From contig NW_013654473.1 of NCBI RefSeq assembly GCF_000499385.1, positions 1-64,000 on the forward strand: DNA of 64,000 nucleotides, given 5' to 3'. Below the pieces are notes generated by a model. That model worked only from the letters and a program-made list of their open reading frames with translations, had not been told where the DNA came from and did not search any database. Below are positions 14,001-52,400 of this stretch, piece by piece (position 1 is the first letter of the stretch; the number at the start of each line of letters is the position of its first letter). A program made the position numbers and the translations under genes. The DNA is from Eimeria necatrix. Lineage: Eukaryota; Apicomplexa; Conoidasida; Eucoccidiorida; Eimeriidae.

Positions 14001-17000
14001 GATTTTGTCGTGTGCTGCGTGCTTCGACTCGCTCGTCCGGTTGCTTTTTGTTGCCTGCGTCAGTTCCATTGGGCAGTTTTATGGTAGAAGGTTGCGCAAA
14101 GCGCCGTTTAAGAGCTTCCACGCGCTTAATTAGTGACACCAAGGCAATACGAGCTGCACAAGACACTTCTTGTTCCTCGCCTGCTTCACGGCTAGACGCG
14201 TGGTCCAGACCCTGGTATAGGTGCTCCTGAGATCCTACATCTGAAGACCTGGGAGGAAGCTGTTGGTGAGCTCTGGGCACAGCAGTGTCGTGAGGGCCTT
14301 GTTGCATTCCAGCGGTCATTTCTACAAGATCTTGATCTGCGTGTATATCCCCTCTGGGCTCGGATTCTTTCATTTGCGGTTCGGCCTCAGCCTCTATATG
14401 CTGGCAGTCTTGGAGTGGTGAATGCAACGAATTTTCCCCCTCTCCGTGCACGGGGACCTCCTGCTCCATCATTTCCACATTGTAGACTTCTGCGTGTAAA
14501 GCCCCTTTTGGCTCGGATTCTTTCATTTGCGGTTCGGCCTTAACCTCTGCATGCTGGCAGTCTTGGAGTGGTGAATGCAACGAACTTTCCCCCTCTCCGT
14601 GCATGGGGACCTCCTGCTCCATCATTTGCATATTGTGGACTTCCTCCGAGCGACGCATGCTGGAGATTTGCTGGTATGAAGCGGAGCACAGCTGAGCTCT
14701 GCATGGGCCAGAATCATACTGCATAATTAGACGGCTCATCAATTCTCTTTGAGCACTAAGCTGCTGTCTCAGATTTTCCAACTCATGCTGGAGATACTGC
14801 GTAAAGCATTTGTTTCTCTGCAGTCCCTGTTGTTCTTCCTGAAACTTTTCAGAATTTTTCAGCGGCTGTAACATCTCTTTTGAATGCTTGGCAAAAAGTG
14901 CAACTGCTTCAGAATCGCCTCCCTCTAATTCCATACGTTTGCCTAATGGTAGGCATTCGCCGCACCTGACTGAAACATTCTCTTGTATATCAAAGCTGCT
15001 GCGCCTTATTGATGACTCGACACTTGTTCCCTGGAAGCAGCACGAATTAGTGCTCTGTGACATCCATAGGAGGGATTGGTTATGGTATATATGCGGATTT
15101 GAAAATGTGCGCGCCTCATAGTACACTCGTTTTGAGGAAGCCTCTGGTGATTTTACTGTGAACTCTGCGCCGTGTCCTACTTTCCACGTTAGAATATTTG
15201 CTGGCATCAAAACATTTTCTCGCGATGTTGGGATATCATCGGACGCCGAATTATCTTGATTCCCACCAGCACCTCGAATTGTGTTTTTCGAGACTTCAGA
15301 ACCTCTTGCCATCATCGACTTTTGCACAACTGAGCAGCAAAGGCTTACTTCGCCATACGTGTCGGTCAATGAATGCGCCATCTGAGTAGTGGTAGTGCGC
15401 TTGCTGTCCTCCCCTTTTTCCTCAGAAGCCCCTTGCGGCGGTTCCCGGTGGCAGCCTTCCTCATGCGATACGGGTTCGCATTGTTTCTTTGGCTCCAGTT
15501 TCACCATTCGAGTACTCGGTCTCTTTTGGAAAGTTTCAGATGGCCCTCTGCTAGTGAAAGCACTTTCCTCTTCATCCACGAAATAAGGGGACAGATTGCA
15601 CACCGGCGCTCGTTCACTTTCAGAGATTCTATCTTCATAGTGGTGCTCTAGAACGCTTTTGTATCCGGACAGCACGGGCCGCTGCTTGCTGTCTGCTTGT
15701 TGCTCTGTTAAGCGCACGGGCTGACAAGCGTCCTTGCGCTCGTCTTGCACGTTTACAGCTCCAGCAGATAGTGGTGCAGCTTCTGCTGCAGTAGAATCCG
15801 CTGTGGTCAGCACTCTGTCCGCTGCGACGAGCGCCGCGCTGACGTCTGTCAACGCTATAGGACTAGGAGCCCGTGAGCAACTTAGATTAGCCTGGTGAGA
15901 GGCTATTTCAACAGCACCGTCGAGGTCTTCCACATGAGGTGAGTTTTGTGGAAAGACCTCAAAATTTTGAACGTCCCGAGTCTCACCATGGCGGACTGCT
16001 GAGTCGTGAATAGAGCCTACTGTATTTCTTACTCCACAAAATGGCAAATTGTGCTTTATGCAGATCTCAGGTTCCTCTTCAGGAGGAGACAGGAGGCCTT
16101 TCTGAGAAGACACATTACTGCTGATAGCTCCGTCGGCATCTCGAGGTCTGACAGCGCTTACTAGTCTACCAGTGCTTTCGGTAGTTGTACTTGAGCATTC
16201 TTGCAACTTTGAGCTATCGAGTGCCCAACAGTTCTTCTCGCCAGTTTGCTCAGACAAAGAATCAATACTCTGTTTTTTATTCGTGCCGGCTTCGTTGGGC
16301 ACTGGCTTGAGGAAATGAGTCATCCTATTCAGTTGTGTCGGTGCATCCTTTGATTTCGTGTCCACTGAGGGCTCTTCTCCATTATTATGGTTTCCTTGAC
16401 ACCTCCGCAGGAACCTACGTGCACCGTTGCGCAGCTGCCTAATAGTTGCAGTGCTCAAAGCCTATGCGGAAAAAAAGTGACAAGCACCTGCCCGCCGGGA
16501 AAGTAGACAGTCAGAAGTTCAACATACAGTAGAGATAAAGACAAGGGGAAGGGGAAATTCCACTATGCAGAGTGACAGCGGAAAAGCCAGCAGCTATCTT
16601 ACCTTACTGATGATGCGGGCGAGATGACGAAGTGCCGCAATTTGTGAGAGTGTTCCCCGTGGCTCAGCAGGAGTCGCAATGAACGCACCTTCACCAGGAA
16701 TGTCTACTGACCTGCTGTCAACAGCAGGGTGTAACCCACTTCGAAGCCCAGCAAACAAGCCAATTGCTTCCTCCGGTGTCTTTGGCTCTGTGCATGCTGC
16801 AGATGGACTTGATGGAGGTAGAACTGCTGAATCAGAAGCCACATTTGGTGCTGCTATACTTGCAGTCGTTGATATAGCTGACGATTTTGACTGTTCTGGA
16901 CCCTCTTGGAGTCTAGATGCAGCACTTGCAGAAGGTGAAGTAGGTGCAGCAGCGCAGTATTCCGCCTCTTGCATTCGGCTCCTTGGTGAAGTAGCTTTAG

Positions 17001-23333: not shown

Positions 23334-26300
23334 TTCAGTGGCAGTTGTAGATACAGGGTGAACAAGGCGGCTGGTAAATGGTTTATCCGAGGGAAAATTG
23401 ATTCGGGGCCTTAAAAATATATGACCCCTAGAACTTACAGCCAGGAGAAGGCATGCATTAGCAAAGGTGTTTCCGAATACTCAGCGTTAGCATACAGATA
23501 AAGTAGCTCGATCAGAAGCACACTACGGGGAGAACATTGGAGATGCCTGGAATCTGGGCAGATAGCGAAACTAATCAGCTGACTGAACAGAAATGCTGTC
23601 TTTTCCCAGGATGTTTTCCCTGGCTACTTGCGCAGTGGGTTTCCACGGCTAGTCGCAGTACCCCAGCGCTTAGTCGGTGGAGACTTGCTCCTAAAGCGCA
23701 ACTCTTTCCCTGATTATTCGTGGGGAGTTTCGATAGGTGAGATGATCTGGTCCAATTCTTGGCTTTCTCTGCCTTTGTGGAAACCCATTGGGTCTACTTC
23801 GCTCCGGCGCGCGGTAGCAAGCCGACAACAAAACTTGAACAGAACGCACATCATGCTGATCCATACAGCAGACATGCCTCCATAACGTTAGCTGAAATGA
23901 TATAAAGCGCTTTCCCGGTTGTTAATTGCTGCATCACGAGAGGTGCGTGTCGTGCTGGTGGGGCTTTCCACGTTTACGCCACCTGGCTCCTGACAAACGC
24001 CAGAGCGCCTCGAGCATTTGCAGTATGATCCAGTGTCTCTTGCTCTATTTTGAAAAATAGTGCCCCACAAAGCGAATATGAGATGGAATTTTTTAGCTAC
24101 GGCGCGAATCGCTTCGATGGCAAGGCAGAATGAGCGGCCACGTGGAACAACGGAGTAGTCCGAAGGGAGAGCTATATTTACGCAGCTCATGCGCAATACC
24201 CAATATCCGAATTTTCAGAAAGATGAAGAAGCGTAGAGGCCACTGCTAACCCTTTTGAGGAAGGGCCTGTTCACTAGCCAGCTACTCCTGCGCCACAAGG
24301 CCACTGCACCTCAGGAAGTGACCCCAAGCAGTTGTTTTGAACTTGGAAACGAGAACACGCACACAGTGACTGCTCTGCTTCAAATGGTTATCAGAACCTA
24401 TGCACCTTTGTCGTTTGTACTATGAAAACTACTGTTCACTCAGAAGCCTATTCATGGTTGTGATGCACTCTGCTGATAACAGAGGCATTTGCCTTCCGTG
24501 TCTCCTAGAACGTTATTGTAACTAACTATTATCGTGGGCATCGGAAGTCTGCAAAAGAACATTTCTGTTTTCGGTACAAACGCCAAGCGCAGTTGCTTCC
24601 GCGCGAAAGCCACTAATCCCCCTAGGCTGTGAAAGGCTGAGCCATTCATCAGCTAGCTCATCTGTGGCGCTCTAGCACGAAGGCAGCCGATGTGCATGAA
24701 GTATTACTCAGAGCCACCAGAGTTACTCTGGGTGGGAGAGGCTGCCATCGTTGGGAAGCCACTTCGAAAACTGCACTGCATACTATAATTTGGTGGCCAG
24801 AGTGCACGCTTCCAGCACTGTAAACTCCCTGTGACTATGCAACAAAGGCAAATAAATATATATGGCGTGAGCTAATCGCACGATACTCGCCGCTCTCTGC
24901 AAGAAACAGGTCCCACATATGAAAGCATACGTTCCGTCAGAGCCACCAGTCGCACCTGTGCATTTGGATGTGAGTGCCCCTCCGCAGCAAGACTTCGAGG
25001 GAAACGGCAACAGTGGAATGATTCATAAAATATGGGGCAGACGAACCGGACTGCTGAGAGTCAGCTGCTTCTGCAGCATTGCAGGATTTCCTTAGGCCTT
25101 TTGTGTGGCCCAATTTTACATCACCGATCTGTTGCTGACTTTGCAGTCGTGTTCCAGAAAGGCGCATAGTAGTTCCGGTACAATTTCTCTCTGCAGCATG
25201 CCATAAGCTTGCTTCATATTCAATGTAGGCCCTATTCTACATCCCCGATCTGTTGCCGATTCTTCAGTCCTGTTCCAGAAAGTTGCATAGTAGCTCCGGT
25301 AGAATTTCGCTCTGCAGCATGCCATAAGCTCGCTTCATATTTAATAGTTAGCGCTCGTGGGGAGTGTTTGCGTACACATTCATGGGAAGCAGGGAAGCAC
25401 TCACCTACTCAAACCGTTAGAGAAATAGGGAAAGTGCCAGGCCACAATGAATCGCTACCAGAAAGCCTTGCCCCAACATGCTTTACAATATCTAGAAAGA
25501 CGAAGGCTAGATGGTAAACGGGCAATTTTGCCTTGCTGAAGGCACACATTGTTTGTGTTTCATGGGTTAGAGGCCACACGTTCTTTGCCACAGTACAGAC
25601 GACGCATGAACGCAGTCTCTAGGGAAAACTGAACTAAATGCATGCTCATTAGTGGTCATGGCTCATTTCCAGAATGCTCGCTCCCCTGTTGTTGACATTC
25701 GACCTCAACGCTGAGCTGCTCAGACATATGGTGCAGCGAGAGCAACAGTAACATGCTCTCTCCGTAGGACTGCACAATTTGGACCAGTGGCAGCTTCAAT
25801 CTACCTCTGACAGTGAAAAAGCAGCGGCCGAGGAGACAATCTGACAAGGAGAAATAACAGGCACGACAGCAACAGGAGGTGATGCACTTTCTCTCGGTAC
25901 GTAGTTGATGACACCAATATACTATGATGCGATTATATGAGGAAGCATGCAGCTTTAATGTACTCAATTTTGAAATCGGAGCCAGGAGCATGCGGGCAAC
26001 CAATTTGGCCCATGAGAAAGTTTCGCAGCGTCCCGGTAAAATCGCAGCGTCTAGAACATTATAGCCAGTTTGATTCTATAATATAGGATTAAAGTGTAAA
26101 GTGCTTCAAACTCCGCCCTTCAATAGTTATTGGCAAGATAGTTCCCCTCGAGCGCCGCTTTTGGCAGCCCGTCAAGCACGTGACCTTCGTGACCTTCGCG
26201 AAGAGCATCGAGGATGAAGCAGCAGCGTTGCCGTCACAGCAAATCAAACTGAAAGGTATTCTTTTATTTATGAAGGCTATAAGTAAACATTGCACAGAGG

Positions 26301-49459: not shown

Positions 49460-52400
49460 ATGCAGCTCTCTCTGGCAGCGAGGCAGCGCCTCGCCCACTT
49501 CTTTGTCTCAGTAGCCGAACTTGAAGGGCAGGTGTGCTCCCACTCATTGCACCAGATACACACTTGGGGCACAGAACGCTCCTCAATATGGCCAGAGGAG
49601 GGATCAAAGTTAGCAGTCCGTTATTCCATGCTTTGTTTTGATCTCCCTACCGGGGACATGAAATTTTTCACAAGGCCCATCTGCTAGGGAACTAGCATGT
49701 AGAGGCCAAAAGACTGTTGGAAAGCCCATTCTCAAAAACAAATATTATAAGCTCAACCTGATTATGGGCTGGTGGCTCAGGTTGAGGCGCTACGCGTTGC
49801 GCTTGCCCAGCTCCCAACCTTCACATCTCACAAAGCATTTACTACTCTGGACCCCCTCGGGAACGGCTTCCTCACCAGTAAATCACGCTCTTCACTGCGG
49901 ATTCCCTACTAATTAGTAAATCATGTGGAGTTCTGGCTTAGAGCTCAGGTTCGTGTGGCGTAAGCATATCGATATTTCGCCATCGCCCAGTGACCACTAC
50001 GCTTGTAACCAGTAGTTGTGGCCCTTGTCGCTGCACAACCATGTTTCCTTAAATAGGCGGAGACCTCCAAAGGTACCTAAAGAACCATGGGGTTGCAGTG
50101 ACGGATTCTGAGGCATATAACCTTCTCAGACGCCTCGACACGAATGGGGATGGGAGGGTCTCTTTCCCTGAGTGAGTTTCCTAGGCTTTTAGAACCAACT
50201 ATCACCTGCTCGTTTCCACGGCAGTGAGTCATGTTAGCAGGATAAGCGTTTAATGAAGAAAACGCTTCACCACAGGATTGGTAAAAAGCACACTTCAGAT
50301 GCAGTGGACGTTGATGCAGAGCCGTACGCAGTTGAATTGCTGTTGTCTCGCAAGGTTCATTGACTTTCTGCTGCCCATGAGTTCGTCGGAAAGAGAGCTC
50401 TTACTCAGTCGAGACCAGCGTTCCTTGCGCCTTCCAAGACGCAGCTGTTCCGTTTGTTACTGTTGCTGCTGCTGCTGCTACTCTGCTGACAAGAGGGAGT
50501 CCGACTACAGCTGGAGCACAGGCGACGTTTGCGTCGCTCAGCTGCTGCAGCGTGAGATTGATGCGCATCGCGCCTTGGAAATTAGGAGGCGAATTCTCTC
50601 TGATTCGCCAGACTTTTTGCTGCTCGCCGCCTTCCAATTCGTTGAAGATCCTAGCATTGCTTCTGTAACTCCACTGTCACTGGCAGAAGCACTTGCGGAG
50701 GAAGGCTTCGTCCTGACACAAATGGATCAAAAGCTAATATTTCGCAGACTCGACAGGTCATCATACCACTCATCTATTTTTGGCTGCTATCTATCACATT
50801 GTCTCTTGCTCTAGTGGCATTGGAGCAAGAGCCAATGTGATGGATAGCAGCCACGCTGATTGGTACTCAGCATGCTTGATTTTTCGACAAGTGTGGCGTC
50901 CGCAGCACTGACAAACGTACGATAGTACTACAGAGCGTCCCCTCTGTAGTACTATCGTACGTTTGTCAGTGCTGCAATCCCTCTTCATGTAGTGGCACAG
51001 TGGAGCAAGATTCGCATTAACCAGTCGAATTCGCTTATATGTTTCAGGGACAGTGATGGCCGGATTAAGTACTTGGAGTTTGTAGAGGCGGTAATGCCTT
51101 CAAGCTACCCAGAGACCCGGATTTCTACCGACCCTTTGCCTGTGGTATGTAGTGCTGTTCTCAAATATTTCGTGGTACTTCAGTGGCAGGGGCAAAATGT
51201 TCCTGCATCTGAGATCTTTGCAAAGCCCTGCAAGGTACTGATAGTGTGCTTGCATTGTTTTTTCCAGCTGCAGTTACAAACGTTTCCAAACCCTTCACGC
51301 TCATCTCTCCTGTTTCTCCTTTCTCATTAACTCTCAATCCAACATCATCAGCATACGATTGGAGGACAAGGTATGCGTTTGCTTTGAGTTGTGTAGGGAT
51401 ATCAGGGATGCATCTGTTCTTTCGGCACCTCATTGTGTGATTGCTATCCAAGCTCGTTGGTGCGGAGTAGCAGCAGCAGCCGCCTCCAACGTCACCCGAA
51501 ATCCAGCGAATTGCGCAGCAGCAGCTCCAACAGCAGCTCTATTGGGGAGCAAACGCTGCCGTTACGCAGGGGATACTCATCAACCGGCACGCTGAAAAGT
51601 TACCTGTGTGGAGGATGCGGTTACCTGGAGAGTAAGGACAGCTTCCAACTGCGCGACAGCAATACAGAAAGGAAAGACTGTTTAATAGCAAGCGAATGCG
51701 AAGTGGCAGGAGTTTTAAACTCACAAATCGACACAGAAAGAAGGCTGGAGCTCCTGAGAGAGAAGCTGGCCCTGAAGTCTGACTTCAATCTCTTGCAGTT
51801 CTGGGGACTTTTCGACAGAGAAGGGAGGGGGTATGCAACAGCCGTGCATGTACAGGAGGCCTTCAATGCTGTTGGATTAAACATATCTCTCACACAGGCG
51901 CGTCTTTTTGCTGGAAAACTAAACAGCGATGCAGAGCCGCGCTTGAGATACGCTGACATGGCAAAGGCCTTCCTTCCCACAAAGGCGAGGTATGCTGAGG
52001 CCATGATCAACCGCACAAGCACAGGCTGTCACAGATGCCCAGCGCCCCTGACGCACCTGGCCCCCGAAACGCTCGAAGTCGTTGCTTCGATATTCGACCT
52101 AACTCTTGCGGTAAGCGAGTTATGTCAACACGCGGCTGTTTTAAGCGTTGAAACAGCATAGTGACACGCGAATGGCAAATATGCTGTCAACGAGCCTTGG
52201 TGGGATTACGTGCTTTCATGAAGTAAAACCAGCATGAGCACGGCCACGAGACGTTAAACTTTCGGAAACATTTGACCATTGTGGCATGCGAAAAGCTGTC
52301 AGCTTGCTTGTTGACAACTCAGTCTGAAGAACAAGCCGAGATTTCGAGACATCGTCTTTGCTTGAAGGATCTTTCTTCAGCATTCCGCAACTTGGACAAG

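Follow-up and report, generated by a model that had tools for sequence, protein, structure and literature searches.

Two hairpins in one intron of an EF-hand gene

The analysed stretch of DNA (the window, 64 kb) carries a gene for a coccidian EF-hand (calcium-binding) protein, one intron of which contains two consecutive hairpins, designated H1 and H2. The features of the locus are the following.

50355-50756, + strand: coding exon that precedes the hairpin intron in the EF-hand gene, placed by protein homology (tblastn)
50757-51047, + strand: host intron, 291 nt, GT-AG, phase 2, splitting the EF-hand as LDR / DSDGRIKYLEF
50781-50853, + strand: hairpin H1, 73 nt, arms 50781-50811 and 50823-50853
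50902-50975, + strand: hairpin H2, 74 nt, arms 50902-50935 and 50942-50975
50981-51010, + strand: direct but diverged copy of 50803-50830, the tip region of H1; 24 of the 30 aligned columns agree, and the alignment has a single 2-nt gap
51048-51144, + strand: coding exon of the host gene downstream of the hairpin intron, placed by tblastn; the donor at 51145 is our choice

The search for homologues of the host protein, in which 7,990 candidates were scored, returned 13. Five homologous proteins were aligned to the DNA by tblastn. Three of them (C. cayetanensis P0004, E. flavescens P0001 and E. stiedai P0002) span both exons flanking the interrupted EF-hand loop, with no residues inserted between LDR and DSDGRIKYLEF. 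E. tenella P0003 starts downstream of the hairpin intron, and the model of E. brunetti P0005 has no upstream flanking exon. In the protein alignment, P0009 is likewise joined at the intron point, while models P0006 and P0007 end there. The orthologous proteins thus bear out the claim of an earlier note on this DNA that the exons join exactly without the intron, and they support the view that the hairpin intron would be spliced out. Identity to the three downstream host exons in tblastn is 94.6, 97.1 and 93.3% for E. tenella P0003, and 64.2, 83.8 and 80.0% for C. cayetanensis P0004. These values speak against a Cyclospora and point to an Eimeria near E. tenella, yet at this distance probably distinct from it; E. 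necatrix, the nearest sister of E. tenella, is our guess.

In the DNA, the arms of H1 pair over 31 bp with two mismatches (Watson-Crick rule) and are separated by an 11-nt spacer, while the arms of H2 are 100% complementary over 34 bp and are separated by a 6-nt loop. H1 is preceded by 24 nt of intron, H2 is followed by 72 nt, and 48 nt lie between them. The positions, the arm lengths, the 48-nt gap and the 6-nt H2 loop given in the earlier note are exact to the base, and the hairpins do fill half of the intron (147 of 291 nt), as it had claimed.

Folded in the sense direction, the RNA of H1 (73 nt) has 34 pairs, of which three are G.U, plus one U.C mismatch and a loop of 3 nt; that of H2 (74 nt) also has 34 pairs. 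The two RNAs thus match in size, and their sequences are unrelated. The folding energies of the sense strands are -56.1 kcal/mol for H1 and -62.9 kcal/mol for H2. Antisense H1 forms 29 pairs at -47.0 kcal/mol, compared with 34 pairs in the sense RNA. The departures of H1 from a perfect palindrome favour sense-strand pairing, a weak indication drawn from four changes in one hairpin. H2 has no strand preference, with -64.4 kcal/mol antisense versus -62.9 kcal/mol sense. When the whole intron is folded, no pair of H2 has a probability below 0.98, and none of the outermost 21 pairs of H1 falls below 0.78.

The host gene has about seven introns, of which two are exact (183 and 291 nt) and five were estimated from tblastn gaps (about 115, 176, 191, 234 and 312 nt). 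The hairpin intron is not unusually long among them, and in the hairpin scan it alone contains hairpins of the H1/H2 class. These lengths bear on the suggestion in the earlier note that the structure brings the splice sites together. Specifically, the hairpins would cut the effective length of the intron from 291 to 144 nt, leaving the segments of 24, 48 and 72 nt, and might thereby approximate the splice sites or hide cryptic ones. However, the remaining introns, one of 183 nt and five of about 115–312 nt, manage without such hairpins, and in our judgement shorter stems ought to suffice. The suggestion is conceivable; it gained no positive support, the intron being of ordinary length for its gene, and we consider a splicing aid improbable.

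Fold-back reads are a familiar artefact of sequencing libraries, and a hairpin in an assembly could arise from one. At this locus, however, the sequence on both sides of each hairpin runs on to exact exon ends, whereas by our reasoning a fold-back read is not expected to extend into the far flank. The inequality of the H1 arms also argues against such an origin. A sequencing or assembly artefact is thus very improbable.

Rarity, copies and origin of the hairpins

The folding of H1 and H2 is far beyond chance. The stretch 50700-51100 (401 nt) has a folding z-score of -11.6 against 100 dinucleotide shuffles, and the z-scores of H1 and H2 are -12.1 and -16.2, respectively (300 shuffles each). A scan of the window for ungapped hairpins with spacers up to 80, listing those with a score of at least 11, returned four: H2 and H1, with scores of 34 and 23, and two with scores of 13 and 12. 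The same scan of three mononucleotide-shuffled windows gave one, one and zero hits, with a top score of 11. H1 and H2 are therefore the sole hairpins of their class in the window.

The survey was extended to 23 other stretches, comprising 195,250 readable bases (about 259 kb in total with the window); in 200 kb of these stretches, about 30 kb reads N. Long hairpins are common there, but are built of CAG, TTTAGGG, GGGGCCCC, AATT, GCTA or similar units, with repeat and non-repeat hairpins sorted by eye. Bands rich in CAG repeats and in telomere-like units have been described in Eimeria genomes (PMC9131526). Outside the simple-repeat classes, the longest perfect hairpin in the 195,250 bases has 19 bp (L006:5869) and includes GTGTACGTACAC. 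A further hairpin, at L021:7245, has 32-nt arms with three mismatches and is composed of the GTGTACGTACAC palindrome and G/C runs. In a scan of 120-nt sense windows, the H2 region reaches -73.3 kcal/mol, compared with -51.2 kcal/mol for the most stable window located over 150 nt from it. Energy by itself does not set such hairpins apart across the genome, since 120-nt windows from the other, repeat-rich stretches have -70 to -76 kcal/mol despite a crude low-complexity filter.

A DNA search of the genome with the whole intron (E ≤ 0.001), which skipped very common words and scored only the best candidates, returned only the intron itself. Five arm probes (21–25 nt, up to three mismatches) matched nothing in the genome except both arms of the hairpin they came from; reversed probes, used as a control, gave two chance hits for one arm probe and none for the other four. 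The searched assembly may lack short contigs, since all 20 of 20 sampled contigs have at least 10,000 bases. The proposal that the arms recur elsewhere in the genome as a scattered palindrome family is thus not borne out by the intron and the five probes. The intron and all five probes being single copy, a mobile-element origin is largely refuted at the sensitivity used.

The same searches bear on the idea, also raised in the earlier note, that the hairpins are footprints of palindromic, MITE-like mobile elements. Short near-perfect inverted repeats in themselves would suit such elements. Nevertheless, neither of the two hallmarks of a MITE is present, namely many copies and a target-site duplication: the genome-wide searches return the hairpins alone, and visual inspection of the sequence flanking each hairpin showed no target-site duplication. 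In addition, a survey of 64 apicomplexan genomes reported no class II transposons and dismissed its MITE candidates (PMC9141347). We therefore regard mobile-element footprints as very improbable.

Searches for other relatives were also negative within their scope. At up to three mismatches, the five arm probes have no near-perfect target site genome-wide, a result that applies to these five probes, for which the register of cleavage is uncertain. An Rfam scan of the window at the gathering threshold gave no match, hence no known RNA family there. A 24-mer of H2 had no match in a viral contig collection, and E. tenella P0003 matched four bacterial loci and nothing coccidian in a genome-contig collection.

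Within the intron, a diverged direct repeat of the apical part of H1 lies 178 nt further downstream. The repeat scores 29, whereas 100 mononucleotide shuffles gave at most 24, and its segment at 50981-51010 is single copy in the genome at up to three mismatches. This direct repeat suggests local copying within the intron, by a path that it does not define.

Local copying is relevant to the possibility that both palindromes are neutral, i.e., two recent template-switch (fold-back) replication mutations that are harmless in an intron and have no small-RNA function. Template switching is reported to be able to make a perfect stem in a single event, and mutation patterns at human microRNA loci are described as consistent with it (PMC8794818). 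As putative products of template switching, H1 and H2 resemble hairpins born in this way in having a perfect stem (H2), a short loop and a single copy. The H1-tip repeat, as a sign of local copying, fits neutrality, and so does the failure of the genome and window searches to find targets, an Rfam family or repeat copies. On the other hand, a local hot spot would be required for two independent events to leave products of one size in the same 291-nt intron, and no other such hairpin lies outside low-complexity sequence across the ~259 kb. Taken together, a neutral origin, the main rival to a small-RNA function, is a real possibility, somewhat short of probable.

Perfect pairing does not settle the matter. 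The earlier note had argued that perfect pairing over such a length decays unless it is selected or very recent. This argument is incomplete, because template switching can re-match the arms (PMC8794818), which weakens the step from perfection to selection. Perfect pairing is also expected of a fresh palindrome that has no function.

Silencing genes and a candidate small-RNA precursor

The genome of the present Eimeria contains a set of RNA-silencing genes: Dicer-like, Argonaute-like and RNA-dependent RNA polymerase (RdRP). Specifically, C218:42272-43729 (L004 and L005) encodes two RNase III domains in tandem, a Dicer-like arrangement; they are separated by about 1 kb and score 65.8 and 42.2 bits at a cut-off of 27. 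The RdRP, at C178:84993-88922 (L029-L033), scores 83.3 bits at a cut-off of 23.8 and contains the letters GGDLDGDKY; an in-frame TAG occurs in one of the five pieces. The Argonaute-like gene at C187 is marked by a PAZ domain with 35.2 bits (cut-off 28.8) and, 4 kb beyond it, by a Piwi fragment that was found at a relaxed threshold and, with 22.9 bits (E = 0.009), falls under its cut-off of 28.9; at the default threshold the genome search gave no match to the Piwi family. In a Pfam scan of eight ORFs, five contain silencing families (PAZ, the Piwi fragment, two RNase III and RdRP) and two have no family. The remaining one, L036:6767-7570, matches two unrelated families weakly, and by its sequence reads like a PIWI domain.

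In E. tenella, a close relative in the same genus, 392 miRNAs have been reported along with an Argonaute and a Dicer-like protein that has two RNase III domains (PMC9353057). The E. tenella enzyme is described as having no recognised helicase or PAZ domain, and RdRP is not mentioned in the accessible parts of that report. The same report found no Dicer-like protein in chicken coccidia other than E. tenella, and for this reason the Dicer-like gene in the present Eimeria is of interest. The use of miRNAs by Eimeria is thinly documented; the one study found describes itself as the first (PMC9353057).

Our leading explanation, held tentatively and at a little less than an even chance, is that the intron is a young pair of Dicer substrates (miRNA- or siRNA-like), probably born by replication template switching. 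Both hairpins would be carried along, in sense orientation, when the host gene is transcribed. The two stems would then fold and be cut by the Dicer-like enzyme, either before or after splicing, and the resulting small RNAs would be loaded into the Argonaute of the parasite. Each hairpin would have arisen by a template-switch event that turned one arm into the reverse complement of the other, and the pairing of both may be maintained for the sake of transcription and processing. We infer transcription, all of the later steps and the template-switch origin.

The features that favour a function are the matching size, the common intron, the rarity of the hairpins, the sense pairing of H1 and the presence of silencing genes. 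Because two such rare hairpins lie within one intron, shared use fits better than two unrelated accidents. Counting against a function are the lack of near-perfect targets for the probes and of an Rfam match in the window, and the equal stability of H2 in the antisense direction. The Piwi match below its cut-off and the in-frame TAG in the RdRP also weigh on this side. As a candidate, a clustered intronic small-RNA precursor is the best supported of the three readings put forward in the earlier note, strengthened by the Dicer-like, Argonaute-like and RdRP genes and by the sense folding of H1.

A close parallel to such a precursor is found in the Tg-MIRNA loci of another coccidian, Toxoplasma gondii, whose fold-backs lie in introns and intergenic DNA, have precursors of about 80 nt and are encoded alongside Dicer and Argonaute (PMC2877743, PMC3453492). 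In one study, 33 of 356 located T. gondii miRNAs are intronic, and Northern signals of pre-miRNAs are at about 80 nt, with one at about 100 (PMC3453492). H1 and H2, at 73 and 74 nt, are close in size to these signals. In contrast to the Tg-MIRNAs, which are defined by reads and reported not to be genomically clustered, two hairpins here share one intron, one of them is perfectly paired, and both are known from sequence alone. The reported lack of clustering in Toxoplasma counts against the present reading.

Among the features used to define Toxoplasma miRNA genes, a locus with a characteristic fold-back is present in H1 and H2. A further formal criterion there is abundant small RNAs with a common 5' end, with a star strand where applicable; near-perfect genomic targets, and for nearly all Tg-miRNAs an orthologue in a sister species, are reported in addition and are not formal criteria (PMC2877743). 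H1 and H2 are not mirtrons, in which the splice sites form the ends of the hairpin, because 24 nt separate H1 from the donor and 72 nt separate H2 from the acceptor. There is a resemblance to the intronic miRNAs of Chlamydomonas, another single-celled organism, in which a stem-loop in a spliced intron of a coding gene is processed and does not block splicing (PMC4817775). Processing in Chlamydomonas was demonstrated with dcl3 mutants and reporters, whereas the Eimeria hairpins were recognised from the DNA.

If correct, the reading as a small-RNA precursor would make this, in the literature searched, the first miRNA-type locus of Apicomplexa known to be both clustered and intronic, seen shortly after template switching had given rise to it, and a good case for witnessing that route to a small-RNA gene. 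Topic searches, which did not cover the supplementary list of E. tenella miRNAs, found no report of this intron locus. A broader proposal, which we consider doubtful, is that eimeriids make small RNAs from near-perfect intron hairpins of fixed size (about 34 pairs, 73–74 nt), possibly clustered, and that a reduced Dicer-like enzyme cuts them, with the product determined by the length of the stem and not by a PAZ ruler. Being strong, single-copy and located in a defined intron, H1 and H2 are a clean test object for the action of an eimeriid Dicer-like enzyme on hairpins.

Other repeats in the genome and the window

The survey also brought up a 14-bp palindrome, GGTGTACGTACACC, which has 2,413 exact occurrences in the 44.0-Mb genome, compared with 0 for its reversed control. 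Example sites are L008:5197-5469, L006:5869-5923 and C15:13771-13824, and in places the copies are spaced 20, 26 or 32 bp. The 12-bp core occurs 26 times in 195 kb of the other stretches and 0 times in the window. A single topic search of the literature found no paper with its 12- or 10-base core. GGTGTACGTACACC is possibly a protein-binding site or a repeat unit.

The window itself contains two tandem duplications of 2.0 copies each, at 14336-14643 (153-bp unit, 91% matches) and at 25107-25345 (121-bp unit, 87% matches).
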